Of a stretch of 64,000 nt of DNA, positions 3,612 to 47,502 are shown in pieces. The DNA comes from Prevotella sp. (lineage in GTDB: Bacteria; Bacteroidota; Bacteroidia; Bacteroidales; Bacteroidaceae). Positions within the stretch are counted from its first letter, which is position 1, and every line of letters starts with the position of its first letter. The notes under the pieces are model-generated. The model saw only the letters and a list, made by a program, of their open reading frames with translations. It ran no database searches and was not told the DNA's origin. Made by a program: the position numbers and the translations under genes. The stretch is taken from contig JAFYZT010000040.1 in the NCBI GenBank assembly GCA_017548605.1, forward strand, positions 310,001 through 374,000. Reading direction: 5' to 3'.

Positions 3612-3640
3612 GATAAGTTCTTTGTTGTACACGATATAAG

Positions 3641-3782
3641 GGTAAAAAGGTAAAAGGGTAAAAGGGTAAAAAGGTAAAAAGGTAAAAGAGTAAAAAGGTA
3701 AAAGAGTAAATCAGCAAACCACCCCAAACCCCTCCTTAGAAAAGGAGGGGAAAGGATGGGGTTTCCCTCCTCAGGAGGGAAC
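3641..3782. repeat. ggtaaaaggg array followed by CCCCTCC palindromes
   Basis: About 65 bp of ggtaaaagggtaaaa-type units (3641-3710) is followed by an ACCACCCC element with hairpin arms CCCCTCCTT and AAGGAGGGG (3718-3755) and a second small inverted repeat, CCCTCCTCAGGAGGG (3765-3779). The block fills the whole gap between the GH94 stop and the glnA start. Confidence 0.8.
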
Positions 3783-3786
3783 GGGA

Positions 3787-6285
3787 TTACAATGTTACTT
3801 CGACGGTGTGGGTGCCGGGGGTGAAGGGGACGACAGTGCCGTCGATGGGTTTTCCGTCGAGGGTGATGGACTTCACGCCCTTGCTGACGCCATTGGGATT
3901 GGAGACGTGGATGGTGTATTCCGCACCACGGAAGCGGCGGTTCACCGTGTATTCCTTTGCCGTGGAGGGCAGGCAGGGATCGATGAGGATACCATCGTAG
4001 TCGGGCTTGATGCCGAGAATATGCTCAGAGATGGTGTACCACATCCATGCTGCGGTGCCCGTGAGCCATGAGTTCTTGCCCTCGCCCGGACGGAAAGCGT
4101 CTTTGCCCGCTACCATTTGGCAGTTGACGTAAGGCTCCACCTTATGCAGTGTCTGGTATTTCTCCTCTACATAGGAGGGAAGAATCTTGCGGTAGTGGTT
4201 CCACGCATCGTCGCCGCGTCCCGCAACCGTCTCGCCGATGATAACCCACGGGTTGTTGTGGCAGAAGATGCCCGCGTTCTCCTTGTATCCCTCGGGATAG
4301 GAGGATATCTCGCCCATCTCGACATGATAGACGGTATATGCCGGATTGTTGAGCACGATGCCATGTTCACACTCCAGTCGTTCCTTCACGCTGTCGAGTG
4401 CCTTGCCGACGAGTCCTTCTTCAAGACCAATGCCCGCCATGGTACACCAACCCTGGCTCTCGATGAAGATTTTTCCTTCCTCGTTCTCGTCGGAGCCAAT
4501 CTTATTACCGAAGAAATCGTAGGCGCGGAGGTACCACTCGCCATCCCAACCGTCGCGTTTCACCGCCTCGACCATCTCCTGGACATGTTTCTCGGCACGC
4601 TCCGCCTCGGCAAGGTATTTCGTGGAACAATCGGATTTCTCGGCCAGCTTGCGGCAGAGCGCCACATAGTCGTTGCCCGTGACCACGAAGAGACCGGCTA
4701 TCATGAGCGACTCCGCCTTGGAGCCCTCGCTCTTGTTTTCCGTCGTCTGGAAACTCTCGTTAGGATCCCAGGAGAAGCAGTTGAGGTTGAGGCAGTCGTT
4801 CCAGTCGGCACGTCCGATGAGCGGCAGCTTATGCGGTCCGAGGTTTTTCACCACATGGTCGAACGACACGCGGAGGTGTTCGAAGAGCGTCACCTCAGAG
4901 CCCGGCTGGTTGTCAAAAGGCACCATCTCGTCGAGGATGGAGAAATCGCCCGTCTCCTTGATATATGCCACGGTACCGAAGATGAGCCAGCAGGGGTCGT
5001 CGTTGAATCCGCCGCCGATGTCGTTATTGCCGCGTTTGGTGAGCGGCTGGTACTGGTGGTAGCATCCACCGTCGGGGAACTGTGTGGAGGCGATGTCGAT
5101 GATACGCTGGCGTGCACGTTCGGGAATCTGATGGACGAAGCCCACAAGGTCCTGGTTGGAATCGCGGAAGCCCATGCCACGGCCGATACCGCTCTCGAAG
5201 AACGATGCGGAGCGCGACATGCAGAAGGTGACCATGCACTGGTATTGGTTCCAGATGTTGACCATACGGTCGAGTTTATCATTATCCGTACGTACCTTAT
5301 ATATATTAAGGAGCTTGTCCCAATAGTCGTTGAGCTCGGCAAAGGCTTTCTCCACTTTTTCGACCGTGTCGAACTGCGCCATCATGGCGAGGGCTTTTTC
5401 CTTATTGAGTATCAAGGGGTGAGAGGTGAGGGGTGAGGGGTGAGAGGATTGAACGAACTTCTTCTCCTGTTCGTTCTCGACGTAGCCGAGCAGGAAGATA
5501 AAGTCGCGCGACTCGCCGGGTTTGAGTTCCACCTCGATGTAATGCGATGCGATGGGACTCCAACCGTGGGCATGGCTGTTGCGCGGTTTGCCCTCGACCA
5601 CCGCGTCGGGATTAGCAAACTCGTTGTAGAGGCCGATGAACGTCTCACGGTCGGTGTCGAAGCCCTGAATGGGTGTGTTGACCGAATAGAACGCGAAGTG
5701 GTTACGGCGCTCGCGGTATTCCGTCTTGTGGTAGATGACCGAGCCTTCTATTTCCACCTCACCCGTGGAGAAGTTACGTTGGAAGTTTTCCATGTCGGTG
5801 GCCGCATTCCAGAGGCACCATTCCTGGAAGGAGAACAACTTGAGCGATTTCTTTTTGTCGGACAGGTTGGTGAGCGTGAGCCGTTGCACCTCGCCCCATG
5901 TGCCCAGGGGCACGAAGAAGAGCACGGAGGCCTCCACCCCACCCTTTCGTCCGGTGATGCGGGTGTAGTTCATGCCGTGGCGGCACTCGTAGAAGTCGAG
6001 CGGTGTCTTGCAGGGTTTCCATCCCGGGTTCCAGATGGTGCCATTGTCGTTGATGTAGAAATAGCGTCCGCCATTGTCCATGGGCACCCCGTTGTAGCGG
6101 TAGCGGGTGATGCGCCGGAACTTAGCATCTTTGTAGAAGGAATAGCCTCCTGCCGTGTTGGAGATGAGCGAGAAGAAATCTTCGTTGCCTAAGTAGTTGA
6201 TCCACGGCCACGGAGTTTGCGGGTCGGTGATGACATACTCGCGATGTTCATCGTCGAAATGTCCATAACGTTTGTTTTCCATCAT
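3787..6285 (-). CDS. Cellobiose phosphorylase (GH94)
   Basis: Inverting phosphorolysis of cellobiose to glucose 1-phosphate and glucose in the cytoplasm; no signal peptide is present. It begins [17 protein letters not shown] and carries the family hallmarks [41 protein letters not shown] and [14 protein letters not shown]. The catalytic aspartate lies in the DWND motif (residues 494-497). As I recall, it closely follows the 822-residue Cellulomonas-type enzyme, with a cellobiose rather than chitobiose phosphorylase signature. At residues 279-291 there is an extra Ser/Pro/His-rich stretch ([12 protein letters not shown]) encoded by ggggtgagag repeats that recur in intergenic DNA. Tandem start codons (MM) make 6282 an alternative. 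A minus-strand TATATTTG lies at 6363-6356. No cellodextrin transporter is adjacent. Confidence 0.93.
5413..5451 (-). repeat. In-frame ggggtgagag-family insertion in the GH94 gene
   Basis: On the plus strand the DNA reads as consecutive ggggtgaga/ggtgagggg units. It matches the intergenic array at 21303-21404 and encodes about 13 residues that break an otherwise conserved stretch between the [10 protein letters not shown] and [10 protein letters not shown] segments. Confidence 0.75.
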
Positions 6286-11077: not shown

Positions 11078-12040
11078 ATGAGGCATAAGACACGAAGGTT
11101 GTTCAAAGCACTGGGTATCTGTCTGGTTGTCATGGTGGTTCTCGCCATTACCGGTGGCAGTGTCTATATGCTTCATTTCTCCCTGGGTGATTCCAGTGGC
11201 AGAGATAGTCTGTTGGCCGAACAACGACTGACAGAGGAATATCCTCATGTGAAAGTCTGGGCAGACAGTCTGCGTCGCACCCATGTCATCCGCGATACCT
11301 TCATGATCGCCAATGATGGTCGCCAGTTGCATGCCCTGTATGCCGCCGCGCCCTCCCCCACCCGTAAGACCGCTTTCGTGATTCACGGCTACACATGCAA
11401 CGCCACATATTACCTTTATATCGGTTATCTCTTTCGCGAGACCCTGGGTATGAATATTTTCATACCCGACCTGCACGCTCATGGTCAGAGTGACGGGCGG
11501 ATGATTCAGATGGGATGGAAAGACGCCGACGACATGTTGGAGTGGTTGCCGTTGTGCAATGACCTTTTCCGCGACAGCTTAGATACAGAGATTGTGGTTC
11601 ACGGCACGTCGATGGGTGGTGCCACCGCCATGAACCTGTCGGGGAAGGAAGACATGGACTATGTGAAGGCATATATTGAAGATAGCGGTTACACCAGTGT
11701 GTGGGATGAGTTCTCGTATGAGTTGAAGGAAAGTTTCGGCATACCCGATGTACCGCTGATGTACACTACCAGTGCTTTATGCAAATTGTTGAACGGCTGG
11801 AGTTTCGGTGAGGCCAACAGTGTGGAGATGGTGAAGCGATGCCAGAAGCCCATGTTGTTCATCCACAGTGACAACGACACCTTCGTTCCGTCGTGGATGG
11901 TTCATCCGCTGTATGAGGCCAAGCCTGAGCCGAAAACACTGTGGGTAGTGCCAAAGAGCGCTCACCATGAAGCCTACCGCGACTATCCCGAAGAATACGC
12001 CAGGCGAGTGAGGGAGTTTTTGGGAAGATTAGAAAATTAA
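11078..12040 (+). CDS. Membrane-anchored alpha/beta hydrolase
   Basis: Predicted serine hydrolase of the alpha/beta-fold superfamily, resembling the YqkD/BAAT-like group. A hydrophobic N-terminal segment (residues about 11-33, ALGICLVVMVVLAITGG) acts as a signal anchor. The fold motifs are AFVIHGYTCNA (oxyanion side), the nucleophile elbow GTSMGGAT (S178), HSDNDTF (D267) and SAHHEAY (H296 or H297). The substrate cannot be told. It lies 58 bp downstream of valS on the same strand, separated by the gagtgac array, and has no separate promoter that I can see, so it may be co-transcribed with valS. Confidence 0.82.
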   Translation: MRHKTRRLFKALGICLVVMVVLAITGGSVYMLHFSLGDSSGRDSLLAEQRLTEEYPHVKVWADSLRRTHVIRDTFMIANDGRQLHALYAAAPSPTRKTAFVIHGYTCNATYYLYIGYLFRETLGMNIFIPDLHAHGQSDGRMIQMGWKDADDMLEWLPLCNDLFRDSLDTEIVVHGTSMGGATAMNLSGKEDMDYVKAYIEDSGYTSVWDEFSYELKESFGIPDVPLMYTTSALCKLLNGWSFGEANSVEMVKRCQKPMLFIHSDNDTFVPSWMVHPLYEAKPEPKTLWVVPKSAHHEAYRDYPEEYARRVREFLGRLEN

Positions 12041-12105
12041 AAGATTAGAAGATTAAAAAATTAAAAAATTATAAGATTAAGAGATTTAAAGATTAAAAGA
12101 TTGAT
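12028..12105. repeat. agattaaaagattataagatt array
   Basis: About 75 bp built from degenerate agatt-aaaa-agatt/aaaaatt units, overlapping the last codons of the hydrolase gene. It is the same family as 2031-2070 and 26028-26064. Confidence 0.7.
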
Positions 12106-12128
12106 TAAGCGGTAGGTTATTGAAAAAA

Positions 12129-12151
12129 AGAGTGGGAATTATTCCCACTCT
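12129..12151 (-). terminator. Terminator of guaA, overlapping its stop codon
   Basis: A perfect 11-bp stem AGAGTGGGAAT / ATTCCCACTCT with a one-base loop, followed on the minus strand by TTTTTTTCA. The guaA stop TAA (12141-12139) is inside the hairpin. It could also stop rightward transcripts from the hydrolase gene. Confidence 0.85.
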
Positions 12152-13860
12152 ATTGTTGATGGCGGTTTGGAGGAAATGTCGTAACAGACGCGGTTAACTC
12201 CTTTTACCTTATTTATTATCTCATTAGATACCTTGGCCATGAAGTCGTAGGGAAGGTGTGCCCAGTCGGCTGTCATGGCATCTGTGCTGGTTACCGCCCT
12301 CAGTGCCACGGGATGTTCATAAGTTCTTTCATCGCCCATGACACCTACGCTACGCACGGTGGAAAGGAGTATGGCTCCCGCCTGCCATATCTGGTCATAA
12401 AGAGAGACCTCAATTGAGTTTGATGGGTTAGAGGAGAGCGGTGAGGACTGCTGGGTTGTTGGCACGCCGGCAGCGAGGACACGTCGGGCCTCTTCGCCAG
12501 ACAGTTTAACCTTATATTCACGTAGTGAACGGATATAGATATCGTCGGCATCCTGAAGGATACGTACCTTTTCCGGCGTGATGTCGCCAAGGATACGCAC
12601 AGCCAGTCCCGGTCCCGGGAATGGGTGGCGTGTGATAAGATGTTCCGGCATTCCCATCTGTCGCCCTACCCTGCGCACCTCATCCTTGAAGAGCCATTTC
12701 AGGGGTTCGCACAGCTGGAGGTGCATCTCTTTTGGAAGTCCACCCACATTATGGTGGCTTTTGATGACTTTTCCCGTGATGTTGAGGCTTTCTATGCGGT
12801 CGGGGTAGATGGTACCCTGAGCCAGCCATCGAGCATCGGTTATTTTCTTTGCTTCCGCGTTGAATACTTCGATGAAGTCGCGTCCGATGATTTTGCGTTT
12901 CTGTTCCGGGTCGCTGACACCCTTGAGATCATTGAAGAACCGTTCGCTGGCATCCACACCGATGACATTCAGTCCCAGTCCCTTATAATCCTCCATGACC
13001 TGAGTGAACTCGTTCTTGCGCAACATGCCATGGTCAACAAAGATACAAGTGAGGTTACTACCTATGGCTTTGTTGAGCAAAACTGCCGCCACCGATGAGT
13101 CGACACCCCCAGAGAGACCCAATATCACCCGGTCGCTACCCAGCTGTTCCTTCAGTTCTGCCACCGTGGTGTCGACGAACGATGCCGCGCTCCAATCCTG
13201 GCGAGAGCCGCAGATATCAACCACGAAGTTTTTCAGCAGCTGAAAACCCTGAATGGTATGGAACACCTCGGGATGGAATTGAACGGCCCAAACTTTGTTG
13301 AGTGTTGAATGTTGAATGTTGACTGTTGAATTGTCGCTTTGCGATGAAGAATTATCCAATTGAGAATGACGGGTATTGAGGGGTGCTTGGGCACTCCAGT
13401 AGGCCGCATATTTCACATCGGCGGTAGAGGCGATACACTCATAACCCAGGGGGATGGCCGTGATAGTATCGCCGTGGCTCATCCACACCTGCGAGTGTTG
13501 CTCAAAGCCGCGGAACAGCAGGTTATTGGTATCCACCGTCTGAAGGTGTGCACGACCATATTCTCGTGAACCGGCTTTTTCCACCTTACCCCCGTTAGTG
13601 TGAGCAATGTACTGTGCCCCATAGCAGATGCCCAGAACAGGAATACGTCCCACAAACTGCGAGAGGTCGACCTTGAACGCCTCAGGGTCGTGAACAGAGA
13701 AGGGTGAACCACTGAGAATGACACCAATGACCGACGGGTCGTCGTTGGGGAATTTATTATAAGGTAATATCTCGCAGAACGTATCAAGTTCGCGTACGCG
13801 CCGTCCAATGAGTTGGGTGGTCTGTGAGCCAAAGTCGAGAATGATGATTTTCTGTTGCAT
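12139..13860 (-). CDS. guaA: GMP synthase (glutamine-hydrolysing) with two in-frame repeat insertions
   Basis: Converts XMP to GMP using glutamine and ATP in purine synthesis. Class I amidotransferase domain: GSQTTQL, nucleophile VLGICYGAQ (C79), FHPEV (H196, E198). ATP-pyrophosphatase domain: LSGGVDSS P-loop (250-256), [11 protein letters not shown], then the dimerisation domain ending PPSTIEWE. I start at 13860 ([13 protein letters not shown]). The protein is 573 residues where about 510-525 is usual. The excess is mainly in residues about 161-188 ([14 protein letters not shown] onward) and about 469-482 ([12 protein letters not shown]). Both are encoded by DNA resembling intergenic repeat families, and both sit in non-catalytic stretches just before conserved segments ([10 protein letters not shown] and [14 protein letters not shown]). 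Confidence 0.95.
12412..12453 (-). repeat. In-frame insertion 2 in guaA (ggttagaggagag type)
   Basis: Plus-strand DNA gggttagaggagagcggtgag resembles the ggggtgagag family at 21303. It encodes [12 protein letters not shown] within the dimerisation domain. Confidence 0.55.
13297..13380 (-). repeat. In-frame insertion 1 in guaA (ttgaatgttgaat + TCGCT/GCGA hairpin)
   Basis: The plus strand reads gttgagtgttgaatgttgaa, then tgactgttgaattgTCGCtttGCGAtgaag. The same arrangement occurs intergenically at 47444-47500 and, inverted, at 39419-39480. It encodes about 28 residues rich in N, S, Q and H. Confidence 0.8.
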
Positions 13861-13936
13861 GTGTTTAATATTTTGGAGCAAGGGGTAATGGGCAGAGGAT
13901 ACCTAATTACCCACCATGAATTATGTTTTTGAATTA

Positions 13937-14674
13937 TTAATTGCTCATTATGAACTGTTCTGCCTGAGTGAGGGAATCGATTTTTCCCACATCGAGGAGA
14001 CGCAGGTCTTGTTGGACAACCGCTTTTATTTTGTGTGTGGCGCAGGTGGAGAGGTAGAAATCGATGATGGGAAATCGTTCCGGCCACTCGTCCATGATGG
14101 GGAAGAGAGATGGTGAGAGCAGGTGAATGCCCGAGAATGCCAGTCGTTGCAGCTGGTTGTTTTCATCCGCCCCCTTCACCCATGGATGAGGTGACCTTAT
14201 CTCTCCTGTCGTCATGTTTTTCCATCCCACCAGCAGCATGTCGTCATTGAAGAGCAGTCGTCTGGATGACGGTCGGTCGCTGACGAGCAGTGTGGCGTCC
14301 GCTCTACTATTATATAAGGTATCAACTTGTGCGTTGCTCAGGATATCCACATTATGGATGAGCACCGGTTCGTTTTCGTCGAATAGCGGTCGCGCCTTTT
14401 TGATGCCTCCGCCAGTTTCCAACAACATTTCCGATTCATCGCTGATGCGTATGTCGAGGTCGGGGTATTCTGTTATGTTGAGGAACTCGATGATTTGGTT
14501 GGCGAAGTGATGCACATTAACGACCAACCTTGTGATGCCGGCCATGCTCATTTTCTGGAGCACATGGCACAAAAGAGGCTGTCCCGCCACTGTGACGAGT
14601 GCTTTTGGCATCGTGTCGGTGAGCGGTCGGAGTCTGGTGCCCAGTCCAGCAGCAAATATCATGGCCTGCTTCAT
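13937..14674 (-). CDS. Sugar-phosphate nucleotidyltransferase (MurU/GMPP-like)
   Basis: A cytoplasmic NDP-sugar pyrophosphorylase-like enzyme. The signature MIFAAGLGTRLRPLTDTMPKAL is at the N-terminus (G-x-G-T-R-x-x-P-x-T with the P-K-A-L lysine). It is followed by a GGGIKKARPLF segment and the metal-binding VHN-D type strand LIHNVDIL. The 245-residue length fits the MurNAc-1-P uridylyltransferase / mannose-1-P guanylyltransferase-like group without a C-terminal beta-helix. I chose the ATG at 14674 (MKQAMIFAAG); the upstream MYFCT start would leave little leader after the TACTTTTG at 14686-14679. The sugar-kinase partner often found beside MurU is not adjacent. The exact sugar is uncertain. 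Confidence 0.85.
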   Translation of the reverse strand: MKQAMIFAAGLGTRLRPLTDTMPKALVTVAGQPLLCHVLQKMSMAGITRLVVNVHHFANQIIEFLNITEYPDLDIRISDESEMLLETGGGIKKARPLFDENEPVLIHNVDILSNAQVDTLYNSRADATLLVSDRPSSRRLLFNDDMLLVGWKNMTTGEIRSPHPWVKGADENNQLQRLAFSGIHLLSPSLFPIMDEWPERFPIIDFYLSTCATHKIKAVVQQDLRLLDVGKIDSLTQAEQFIMSN

Positions 14675-15010: not shown

Positions 15011-15235
15011 ATGAAAAAATTGGTATTTATGTTCGTAGCTATGGCTGCTATCTCTTTCGCTTCTTGCGATTCGAAGAAAGCTGGTGAGGCTGTTGAGGCT
15101 GCCGCTGACTCTATCACTGCTGCCGCTGACAGCACTGTTGAGGCTGTGACCGACTCTATCAAAGCTGCCGCTGACAGCGCCGTTGCCACTGTTGACAGTG
15201 CTGCTACCGCTGCTGTTGATAGCCTGAAGAAGTAA
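15011..15235 (+). CDS. Small Ala-rich lipoprotein with seven-residue repeats
   Basis: 74 residues from ATG 15011 (MKKLVFMFVAMAAISFASC). The lipobox SFASC predicts a lipoprotein with Cys19 acylated. The mature part is almost entirely A, D, S, V and T in a seven-residue pattern of the form xAAADSx (AAADSIT, AAADSTV, EAVTDSI, KAAADSA, VATVDSA), ending DSLKK. This suggests one long amphipathic helix or coiled coil in the periplasm. A strong promoter and a strong terminator flank it, so it is a single, probably abundant transcript. I do not recognise a family and give no function; a structural role comparable to Lpp-like proteins is only a guess. Confidence 0.85.
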   Translation: MKKLVFMFVAMAAISFASCDSKKAGEAVEAAADSITAAADSTVEAVTDSIKAAADSAVATVDSAATAAVDSLKK

Positions 15236-21302: not shown

Positions 21303-21404
21303 GTTTTGAGGGGTGAGAGGGGATTAAGGGGTGAGGGGTAAGGAGTGAGAGGTGAGGGGTGGGGTTTTAAGGGGTGAGAGGTGAGGGGTGAGAAGTGAGA
21401 GAAT
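21303..21404. repeat. ggggtgagaggtgagggg array
   Basis: About 100 bp of degenerate ggggtgagag/gtgaggggt/aaggagtgag units, the longest intergenic copy of the family. The same units are inserted in frame in the GH94 gene at 5413-5451. Confidence 0.8.
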
Positions 21405-24304: not shown

Positions 24305-24333
24305 GTTTTGTTATTTGGGTACAAAAGTAGTTA

Positions 24334-24402
24334 AAAAGTAAAAAAGTAAAAAGGGAAAAGGGTAAAAAAAGGTAAAAAGGGAAAAGGGTAAAAGAGTAAA
24401 GA
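24334..24402. repeat. ggtaaaaaggg array
   Basis: aaagtaaaaaagtaaaaagg, then gaaaagggtaaaaaaaggta and similar units. It is the same family as 3641-3710, immediately upstream of the truA promoter. Confidence 0.75.
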
Positions 24403-26117: not shown

Positions 26118-26143
26118 GGTCCTATTTGACTAAGCTAGTTTGC

Positions 26144-26254
26144 TTTCACAACCACCCCGTTGTGGACTTTCACAACCATCCCGTTGTGGACTTTCACAAC
26201 CACCTCGTTGTGGACTTTCACAACCACCTCGTTGTGGACTTTCACAACCACCCC
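26144..26254. repeat. 24-bp tandem repeat, 4.6 copies, each a CACAAC/GTTGTG hairpin
   Basis: Copies start at 26144, 26168, 26192, 26216 and 26240 (partial). The unit is TTTCACAACCACCCCGTTGT+GGAC, with C/T changes at two positions. Every full unit contains the inverted repeat CACAAC-CACCCC-GTTGTG. The last copy runs straight into a CCCCTCC/GGAGGGG palindromic element, as if the array had been amplified from that element's 5' flank. Confidence 0.9.
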
Positions 26255-26453
26255 GCCCCCTCCTTTAAGGAGGGGTACCTACCCTCCCCAAGCCCCTCCC
26301 GACATCGGGAGGGGATGTAACCGCTCCACCCGTCGCTCATAAATTAAGGTACTGCTCCCTTTTTCTGCCGGTCGCAGTATTGTTTGACGCAACAGAGTTG
26401 CGATTTCTTGACAAACCACCCCTACCCCTCCTTTAGAAAAGGAGGGGAGTAGG
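26245..26453. repeat. Three palindromic elements: CCCCTCC / GGAGGGG
   Basis: ACCACCCC with CCCCTCCTTtaAAGGAGGGG (26248-26274), CCCCTCCCgacatcGGGAGGGG (26285-26307), and ACCACCCC with CCCCTCCTTTAGAAAAGGAGGGG (26416-26446). From 26454 to 26665 I see only AT-rich DNA with no clear feature. Confidence 0.8.
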
Positions 26454-39399: not shown

Positions 39400-39482
39400 G
39401 AATAACGAATTTGGAATTATTCAATGAACATTCTATATCGCTAGCGATAATTCAACATTCCACGTTCAACATACAACATTTT
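39380..39482. repeat. acgaattacgaatt array and inverted ttgaatgttgaat element
   Basis: cttacgaattacgaattagg onward (39384-39420) includes the GH43 stop codon. Then the inverse complement of the element seen at 13297 and 47444 (ttcaacattccacgttcaac, with the small hairpin TATCGCTAGCGATA at 39436-39449) fills the gap to the next ATG. Confidence 0.75.
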
Positions 39483-45794: not shown

Positions 45795-45828
45795 AGAAGA
45801 AAGGGGTAAGGGGCAAGGGGCAAGGAGC

Positions 45829-45870
45829 AAGGGGCAAGAGATATGCCAGTTGGGTATTCTCTTGCCCCTT
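45829..45870. terminator. Bidirectional terminator preceded by ggggcaagg repeats
   Basis: A 14-bp stem AAGGGGCAAGAGAT / ATTCTCTTGCCCCTT (one bulge) between convergent genes. The left arm is the last copy of an aaggggcaagg tandem array (45800-45840), so repeat DNA forms one arm of the terminator. Confidence 0.7.
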
Positions 45871-45896
45871 ATTTCTTATTTCTTACTTCTTACCTC

Positions 45897-47429
45897 TTAC
45901 TTCTTACTGCTATAGCATCTGAAGATGTCGTCAACCACCGTTGACGGCATCTTCGGCGTTAAGAGGCTGACAATCCAGGTGACAGGGAATCCACCAATCA
46001 TGGCTATAGCACCACAGTTGATGGGGTTGATGGGATTGCCCAACAGCATGTTGACCACGGTAAGTCCTACGCCCCACACGAAACAAGCCCATACCGCAGC
46101 CGTCGTCACGCCACGCCAATAAAGGCCGAGCATGAATGGAGCGAGGAAGGCACCTGCCAATGCACCCCACGATATACCCATGAGTTGTGCAATAAATGTG
46201 GGTGGGTTAAGTGCGATAAGCAATGAAATGACAATAAAGAAGACGATGAGCACGCGCATGACCACCACCTTGCGATGTTCCACCTTTTCCGACACCTCGT
46301 CGTCGATGCTTCCTTCCTGCACTTCGCCCGGCAGTGCCTTTTTGTCGCGGTAGATGAGGTCGAGCGTCATCGTCGAGGATGATGTAAGCACCAGTGATGC
46401 CAGTGTGGACATCGAAGCCGAGAGAACAAGCAACACCACCAGCGCAATGATAAAGTCGGGCAGTGTTACCAACATAGACGGCACGATAGCGTCGAAGTCA
46501 AGTTTTCCCGAGGGAAGCACCGGGGGCATTCCGAAGAGCCGTCCGAATCCTCCAAGGAAATAGCATCCACCAGCCACCACTAGGGCGAAAACGGTAGAGA
46601 TAATCGTTCCTCTTTTGATAGCCTTCTCGTCAGTGATGGAATAGAATTTCCCCACCATCTGCGGCAGTCCCCATGTGCCCAGCGAAGTAAGAACTACCAC
46701 GCCCAAGAGATTCCAAGGGTCGGGTCCAAAGAGCGAAGCAAAGCCGCCATTGGCAGCAGCATCATTGTCGGCCGGCAACTGTGACAATTTGCCGACAGCC
46801 GCTGACAATCCACCCTGAGTGTTGAGTACTGCAGCGATGACCGTTACTATACCGAAGAGCATGATAATACCCTGGATAAAATCGTTCATGGCCGTTGCCT
46901 TATACCCTCCGAGGATAACATAAACCGCTGTGAAAGCCGCCATGAAGATGACACAATATTGATAGTCGATACCAAAGCCCATCTCAAAAAGCGTCGATAT
47001 ACCCTTGTAAACACCCGCTGTATAAGGAATGAGGAAGACGAAGGCAATGACGCTTGCCGTGACACGCAGTCCTTGGCTCTGATAGCGTGTGCCGAAGAAA
47101 TCAGGCATTGTACGGCTCTCTATGTGCTGCGTCATCAGTTTTGTCCGTTTTCCAAGCACCAACCAGGCCAACAGCGAACCTATGACCGCATTGCCGATGC
47201 CGATCCATGCCGAACTAAGACCGTATTTCCAACCGAACTGTCCTGCATAGCCCACAAAGACCACCGCCGAGAAATATGACGTACCAAAGGCAAATGCTGT
47301 AAGCCAGGGTCCTACAGTGCGACCACCGAGAACGAACCCATCTACTGAACGTGCTTGTTTGCGGGAATAGAGTCCCACAAAAACCATCAAACCAATAAAA
47401 ATGATGGTAAGAAAAATTTTGATAAACAT
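45897..47429 (-). CDS. Sodium/solute symporter (SSS family)
   Basis: Inner-membrane secondary transporter of 510 residues with about 13 hydrophobic helices, first MFIKIFLTIIFIGLMVFVGLY. SSS motifs: SVDGFVLGGRTVGPWLTAFAFGTSYFSAVVFVGYAG near the N-terminus (the unwound TM1 and Na+-site region) and a GGYKATAMNDFIQGIIM segment near 180. The substrate cannot be told; PutP-like amino-acid, sugar and organic-acid carriers share these features. It is downstream of the porin gene on the same strand (110-bp gap filled with a ttgaatgttgaat repeat), so porin and symporter may form an uptake pair across the two membranes. Confidence 0.9.
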   Translation of the reverse strand: MFIKIFLTIIFIGLMVFVGLYSRKQARSVDGFVLGGRTVGPWLTAFAFGTSYFSAVVFVGYAGQFGWKYGLSSAWIGIGNAVIGSLLAWLVLGKRTKLMTQHIESRTMPDFFGTRYQSQGLRVTASVIAFVFLIPYTAGVYKGISTLFEMGFGIDYQYCVIFMAAFTAVYVILGGYKATAMNDFIQGIIMLFGIVTVIAAVLNTQGGLSAAVGKLSQLPADNDAAANGGFASLFGPDPWNLLGVVVLTSLGTWGLPQMVGKFYSITDEKAIKRGTIISTVFALVVAGGCYFLGGFGRLFGMPPVLPSGKLDFDAIVPSMLVTLPDFIIALVVLLVLSASMSTLASLVLTSSSTMTLDLIYRDKKALPGEVQEGSIDDEVSEKVEHRKVVVMRVLIVFFIVISLLIALNPPTFIAQLMGISWGALAGAFLAPFMLGLYWRGVTTAAVWACFVWGVGLTVVNMLLGNPINPINCGAIAMIGGFPVTWIVSLLTPKMPSTVVDDIFRCYSSKK

Positions 47430-47443
47430 TATTTGAGTGTTGT

Positions 47444-47502
47444 TTTTTGATTTTTGAATGTTGAATGGTCGCTGCGCGATGAAGATTTTTGAATGTTGAG
47501 TG
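47444..47502. repeat. ttgaatgttgaat element with TCGCT/GCGA hairpin
   Basis: ttgaatgttgaatggTCGCtgcGCGAtgaag, then tttttgaatgttgagtggtt. It shares its order and hairpin with the guaA insertion at 13297-13380. Confidence 0.8.

Follow-up and report, generated by a model that had tools for sequence, protein, structure and literature searches.

Why should the GMP synthase of a Prevotella be longer than that of its relatives, with extra residues encoded by DNA that resembles repeats lying between genes? The question is raised by guaA on contig JAFYZT010000040.1 of the Prevotella sp. assembly GCA_017548605.1, of which 64,000 nucleotides (positions 310,001 to 374,000, hereafter the window) were analysed. 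A sequence-only reading had proposed that two in-frame segments of this gene, here called blocks 1 and 2, are made of intergenic repeat DNA. Very probably, dispersed non-coding elements have come to be translated inside GuaA, where they are tolerated in loops if they lie in the sense direction, are free of stop codons and keep the frame; that the inserts are translated would follow from the intact reading frames.

The guaA gene and its two blocks

As had been claimed, the gene encodes a protein of 573 aa, in which the Pfam domains GATase, NAD_synthase and GMP_synt_C were matched (Table 1). Counted from the residues KIIIL, the protein has 570 aa versus 531-533 aa in insert-free relatives, so that the net excess is about 38 aa and not the 50 or so first estimated; about 29 aa of it fall at block 1 and about 9 aa at block 2. 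An account of the extra length as a conserved domain is ruled out for block 1, the segment not being conserved across the family, and a separate segment of about 22 aa, N-terminal to block 2 and outside both blocks as first drawn, is common to 82 of the 96 relatives examined. Splicing or translational bypass of the inserts is not favoured, because they are stop-free and frame-keeping.

Against the structure 1gpm, which we take to be the E. coli GMP synthetase, the protein aligns in three pieces (residues 3-152, 188-448 and 485-573 with structure residues 8-166, 173-437 and 438-525). Block 1 lies in the first break in the alignment, at which the 1gpm chain has six residues, a few residues ahead of the conserved QFHPEV motif; the second break, at which the 1gpm chain has no residues, is shared by block 2 and the segment of about 22 aa. 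Placed by alignment to solved structures, both blocks would lie in surface loops. The motifs GICYG, QFHPEV and SGGVDSS, presumably the catalytic ones, are invariant across an alignment of 44 GuaA sequences.

Table 1. Features of the window discussed in the text (positions within the 64,000-nt stretch)
Feature	Position	Strand	Remarks
guaA	12139..13860	-	GMP synthase, 573 aa; intact reading frame; Pfam match
Block 1 (site 1)	13297..13392	-	repeat-derived in-frame insert, GuaA residues 157-188
Heptamer array within block 1	13296..13331	-	unit TGTTGAA on the + strand, sense ATTCAAC-type, 5.1 copies
Hairpin core	13334..13354	+	TCGCTTTGCGATGAAGAATTA, common to dispersed copies
Block 2 (site 2)	12415..12456	-	residues 469-482, probably a decayed repeat insert
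Intergenic element copy	47435..47487	-	heptamer end at 5 nt from an ATG (minus-strand ORF)
Intergenic element copy	39429..39480	+	heptamer end at 7 nt from an ATG (plus-strand ORF)
Heptamer tract in a GH94 gene	5407..5455	-	CTCACCC-type, in frame, residues about 276-292, between two GH94 domains (gene 3790-6285, minus strand)

Read in the coding orientation, block 1 holds the hairpin TCGC-AAA-GCGA as its core and, after it, heptamers of the ATTCAAC type; the anatomy of the element is heptamers, hairpin core, heptamers. At least 57 matches to it were found in its own genome (G000) at E<=1, guaA included, some of which are adjoining pieces of one array; here, as in all the repeat searches of this and related genomes, the counts are of pieces and not of copies, because palindromes match both strands. 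The intergenic copies that had been noticed near 47444 and 39419 are real, and the core pattern, allowing up to three mismatches, has two matches in the window versus 0.14 expected. When block 1 was aligned locally to the intergenic part of a sample (524 kb) of the own genome, its best score was 66, while 60 dinucleotide shuffles gave a mean of 27.1 and a maximum of 34, and the similarity first seen by inspection is thereby upheld. The element is matched in at least 39 of 200 same-genus genomes at E<=1e-4, with the lowest E-values outside its own genome, among the matches listed, in G142 and G182, and with weaker matches spanning the core in G080, G082 and G043 among others. An Rfam search of window positions 12000-14000 gave nothing at the gathering score and two matches up to E=1, both outside the blocks. 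The conclusion that block 1 is a copy, inserted in frame, of a non-coding repeat family dispersed in this Prevotella genome is thus supported.

For block 2 the resemblance to repeat DNA is slight. Its likeness to the sequence at 21303-21404, which had been noted at the outset, is marginal, as its best intergenic score of 33 barely passes the maximum of 32 reached in 60 shuffles, and among 27 windows taken elsewhere in guaA one does no worse. It is counted as an insertion because of the alignment: most relatives are shorter at this position, where they have GVPxxMxDGEIEVS, and a clear heptamer-plus-hairpin element, read as ..LDNSSSRSDNSTFNTQHST.. or ..LDNSSLQSDNST.., stands at the same site in G142 (locus L025, match C15:11522-11583) and G182 (L004), the closest relatives by GuaA identity among the matches listed. 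Two further loci (L064 and L069) have CCCTGCC-type heptamers there. To judge by these alignments block 2 is probably a decayed repeat insert. The insertion reading accordingly holds for block 1, which is absent from many relatives, is bounded by flanks that align and has a repeat match far above shuffles, and is likely for block 2.

The window holds tandem repeats of other kinds as well. Period-8 arrays, a second tandem-repeat class, occur at 3638-3710, 12025-12102 and 24329-24400 (AAGGGTAA, AAGATTAA and AGTAAAAA), the one at 12025-12102 overlapping the end of an ORF that converges on guaA. A 24-nt repeat, CTTTCACAACCACCCCGTTGTGGA, of inverted-repeat character by eye, is present in 4.7 copies at 26143-26255, a direct repeat of 45 nt (a multiple of three) in 2.1 copies at 15090-15185, and an inverted pair of heptamer-like arrays separated by 16 nt at 45795-45904.

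Three variable loops and the repeats of their host genomes

A search for GuaA in 200 genomes, many of the compared ones being metagenome-assembled genomes (MAGs), returned some match in 188, several of them weak (best E 1e-9 to 1e-3) and not guaA. Of 110 guaA loci, 109 were read, L118 being left out by a strict start pattern, and 100 were distinct by DNA, although these sequences are not strictly distinct species. Across the genus GuaA has three loops that vary between species, and several of the inserts in them are members of families of repeats that are dispersed in the host genome; readings at site 1 include LTPNPSPKGEG..RGVGGEAP, SPLGEGRGEAP, KVQSSKFKVQSSKG and TQLSTLNSQLSTG. The expectation that the insertions would be confined to one strain or a few close relatives was borne out only in that the flanks align, since in many relatives these loops are long as well and hold other repeats.

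On a tree of 96 sequences built without the three loops (L066, L067, L100 and L110 being left out), site 1 is long in 55 and short in 41, which takes at least 16 changes of state; site 3 is long in 12 and needs at least nine changes, and site 2 is long in 11, in one case by a single residue, and needs at least six. A family-wide draw of 29 loci, three of them from the same genus, has a short site 1 in 27 and a longer one in L278 and L306, and a longer site 3 in L278, L283, L284 and L303, the last with the repeat-like TPPLSEGAGG. Among the named records GuaA is of base length in Segatella copri (L099, L101), Leyella stercorea (L120) and Prevotella pectinovora (L116).

The long segments at site 1 (57 of the 100 sequences) have a lag-7 identity of 0.364 versus 0.259 in shuffled sequence (z 16), and those of at least 8 aa at site 2 (five of 76 captured) 0.641 versus 0.336 (z 12), both with kinship among species not removed and with a few of the site-1 strings, such as those of L026 and L140, including conserved residues upstream. 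No lag-7 excess is present in the inserts at site 3 (12 of 99 captured; z 1.2), and the rest of guaA has a lag-7 identity of 0.239 (40 of the 100 sequences, three shuffles).

Where the inserts were traced to repeats, their families are dispersed in the host genome, yet they are not private to it. The insert of G138 has at least 47 matches in G138, at least 13 in G178 and one in G119, and none in G188, G142 or G000 among the matches listed. That of G178 has at least 12 in G178, including its best other matches (96-98%), at least 44 in G138 that are mostly less alike, at least seven in G188 and at least two in G000, with none in G119 or G142 among those listed. The palindrome of G119 matches at least 23 pieces in G119, full-length copies being 80-82% identical, and at least 20 pieces in G178, nine in G000 and seven in G138, with none in G188 or G142 among the matches listed; it is the ends of the palindrome that match in G178, G000 and G138. 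These families are therefore common to some genomes and missing from others. When 12 copies from four genomes were aligned, they pointed to a similar core around TTCTTCGC..GCGAAGCG, with members from G000 and G188 fitting less well, and to heptamers that differ by genome. The heptamer units read in the whole analysis include ATTCAAC, AAAGTTC and CTCACCC among others.

Two cases preserve the traces of an event. The guaA of G138 contains an identical stretch of 66 nt at sites 1 and 3, and site 1 of G178 (L006) has exactly 30 nt more than in the two relatives L009 and L074, set between intact AAAGTTC heptamers and comprising, by eye, two small hairpins. Both speak for copying rather than slippage.

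Other proteins, open frames and start codons

Repeat inserts are not limited to guaA, as other proteins carry them too. In the own genome ComEC has two inserts, the first of which is read in another frame than block 1 of GuaA, and both are missing from 27 other orthologs in an alignment of 28 of the 30 loci returned, although the orthologs are distant (roughly 37-60% identical). A protein that we read as PurF, for which Pfam gives a glutamine amidotransferase domain, has a longer loop ahead of MGHLRYST in seven of 30 aligned sequences, the own genome included; the own-genome loop matches the palindrome family, a repeat origin in the other six is judged by eye, and three further sequences (L245-L247) have a different long version. 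Insert matches were found inside single Pfam domains, which in the own genome are Competence and LPG_synthase_C, in G138 PPDK_N and in G178 SpoU_methylase. Separately, six proteins among 11 repeat-sharing candidates of the own genome were scanned with Pfam, two of them having no match. The own genome also has a period-7 tract inside a GH3_C domain.

A broader count was made in the 524-kb sample of the own genome, which has 398 called ORFs and is non-random, as it holds the window together with stretches partly picked around element matches (L160, L162). It contains 44 period-7 tracts, of which 34 lie between genes and the other 10 within called ORFs. Six of these 10 lie at ORF N-termini, may be untranslated leaders and were left out of the insert count, and the four interior tracts are in GH94 (Table 1), GuaA, a ketoacyl-synthase-like ORF and GH3; five codon-order shuffles gave 0, 0, 1, 0 and 0 ORFs with such a tract. 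DNA that recurs in two or more further intergenic places makes up 11.5% of the intergenic bases of the sample versus 0.2% of the genic ones. As side observations, repeats lie in open frames of an FAD-oxidase/CCG protein (L192), a GH2 beta-galactosidase (L188) and a PPDK_N protein (L170) of G138, and repeat-type peptides, THPLPLPKGGEKG and THPNPPKGRG, occur in the own genome in a ResB/cytochrome c assembly protein (L160, 16431-18707) and a peptidase-S9-like protein (L203, 9794-11140).

Orientation appears to govern which copies can survive in a gene. Among own-genome copies of at least 45 nt (40 of 50), sense frames are open in 84 of 120 cases and antisense frames in two of 120; therefore a copy in sense orientation is able to pass if its length is divisible by three, while an antisense copy almost never can. 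By simple arithmetic, moreover, a 7-nt unit gives one and the same 7-residue repeat whatever the frame.

The same polarity is seen with respect to start codons. In a set of 50 distinct own-genome copies, largely chosen by element match and including some adjoining pieces of one array, the heptamer end lies between -6 and +25 nt of an ATG in 24 and the hairpin end in four, with two copies in both classes (ORFs of at least 100 codons, starts called mechanically). The resulting split of 22 versus 2 (sign test about 4e-5, some copies being neighbouring pieces) is unlikely without an orientation preference of the element toward start codons. The 30 nt preceding the 24 element-linked ATGs have a mean minimum free energy of -0.01 kcal/mol, compared with -0.81 for 187 ORF starts (first ATG) and -4.11 for 3449 internal ATGs. 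According to the part of PMC3155529 that bears on the matter, Prevotella bryantii has no functional Shine-Dalgarno interaction, structure close to the start is inhibitory and a hairpin some 20 nt upstream is tolerated. The layout of the element fits these traits, and whether it acts in translation is about evenly balanced.

Origin of the inserts and relation to known elements

In the explanation that we prefer, the unit joins a short hairpin core to a series of degenerate 7-nt repeats, and it would spread by ectopic copying. The likeliest route, though we would give it slightly less than an even chance, may be recombination or template switching between heptamer arrays; recombination of this kind would account for the case of G178, and the first arrival of an element in a gene would need another route. 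Most copies observed lie between genes, and about half of those examined end at a start codon; there the heptamers, poor in G, are predicted to leave the ribosome-entry region unstructured. Intragenic copies would survive if they are in sense orientation, have a length divisible by three and sit in a loop that tolerates them. In this genus GuaA would offer three such loops, struck repeatedly by the repeat families of the respective genomes.

The strongest competitor, which we regard as possible but doubtful, is active transposition, in which a transposase with its own choice of target would move elements resembling MITEs or REPs. The dispersed copies are numerous, and a MITE- or REP-like look is shared by the hairpin cores and by the AGCCTCACCCCC..GGGGGTGAGGCT family with its long terminal inverted repeats. 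However, inspection of the G178 junction by eye gave at most one possible base of target-site duplication, the heptamer flanks around a similar core differ between species, and no match to a Y1 transposase was obtained in G000 (92% complete), G138, G178, G119, G182 or G093, some of these genomes being incomplete. Such a match is present in three of the eight other genomes (G142, G188 and G154); with no Y1_Tnp match in G000, mobilisation by RAYTs is not supported.

It is quite improbable that the inserts were selected for a function of the protein, for example as a regulatory or binding loop in GuaA. The repeated variation of the same loops in GuaA and PurF, both purine enzymes, would suit such a role, but the sequence and length of the inserts differ by species, the short site-1 loop is common, the frame of the element is not the same in GuaA and ComEC, and proteins as different as ComEC, GH94, GH3 and the SpoU methylase also have inserts. 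Local slippage is more improbable still; on that account, short units duplicated in tandem would have built up the loops de novo, and the likeness to intergenic repeats would come from the same process acting there. Heptamer runs expand easily, and some inserts consist of heptamers only (L018, L137); against this, non-repetitive hairpin cores were copied too, with copies 95-98% identical elsewhere in the same genome (G138, G178), the same 66 nt stands at two sites of one guaA, and long inverted-repeat elements were inserted whole (L008, L022, L109). An assembly artefact or pseudogene is hardly credible: many source genomes are MAGs, but independent genomes contradict an artefact, with long site-1 loops in the non-MAG-labelled Prevotella sp. 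tc2-28 (L140, repeat-like by eye) and P2-180 (L078, identical in DNA to L014 and not clearly repeat-like), and against a pseudogene full GuaA without internal stops is found among the matches listed and many motif positions are invariant in the 44 sequences.

Translated intragenic repeats are already known as a kind. The Rickettsia palindromic elements, as PMC10969869 describes them, are short repeats that sit in frame in a wide range of unrelated genes and yield an extra peptide on translation, and in Prevotella too a dispersed repeat lies in frame in unrelated protein genes (GuaA, ComEC, PurF, GH94, GH3 and others), a likeness of functional kind. Unlike these, the Prevotella unit is a heptamer array plus a hairpin, its intergenic copies favour start codons and the same loop receives different repeats in different species. 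Intragenic GTAG/CGTC REPs are likewise hairpin repeats inside ORFs in several species, and different REPs stand at about the same recB site in two Xanthomonas species; as far as the relevant part of PMC3733652 goes, however, REPs lie near the 3' ends of ORFs, whereas the Prevotella element is adjacent to ATGs and has heptamer flanks. By eye, terminal GTAG or CGTC is absent from the 30-nt core of G178 (TTTGCAGAGC..CCGAGCGC), the one core inspected.

The TAACTGA heptamers of Beggiatoaceae, Cyanobacteria and some Bacteroidetes are, as PMC4679880 describes them, forward 7-nt direct repeats a few nucleotides upstream of starts, occasionally inside ORFs, with one set near the end of purC. The forward placement just upstream of starts is shared by the Prevotella element (24 of 50 copies, versus four of 50 at the other end), but forward TAACTGA contains stops in all frames, while the ATG-directed strand in Prevotella is mostly open and enters the interior of enzymes; the Prevotella elements also have a hairpin core and other heptamers, TAACTGA not being among the units read. 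The BrickBuilt MITE of Porphyromonas gingivalis, a species that also belongs to the Bacteroidetes, likewise has tandem repeats within a dispersed element, and differs, on the portion of PMC4596501 that treats it, in its 23-nt unit, its 19 copies and its always intergenic position. Long inverted repeats are present in the L008 family. For the heptamer-hairpin form, the repeated insertion into the same loops and the preference for start codons, we found no description from Prevotella in the open-access literature.

A bolder reading, which at present seems rather unlikely, is that the heptamer-hairpin elements are a portable ribosome-entry leader of bacteria that do without Shine-Dalgarno pairing and are at the same time preadapted to become protein. 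Their spread would be favoured as landing ahead of an ATG supplies an unstructured initiation region, they would be preadapted because they give a 7-residue repeat independent of frame and have a mostly open sense strand, and they would continually feed new loops into essential enzymes.

For the biology of the genus, one practical caution is that a loop out of the ordinary in a Prevotella protein may be a repeat, and the findings point to a class of elements adjacent to start codons in a major genus of rumen and gut. The conversion of non-coding DNA into protein is usually inferred long afterwards. Here, within one genus, cases recur at the same enzyme loops, the donor repeats are still present and at least one set of species represents the states before and after; it therefore becomes possible to measure how new protein segments arise, how they are tolerated and what becomes of them.
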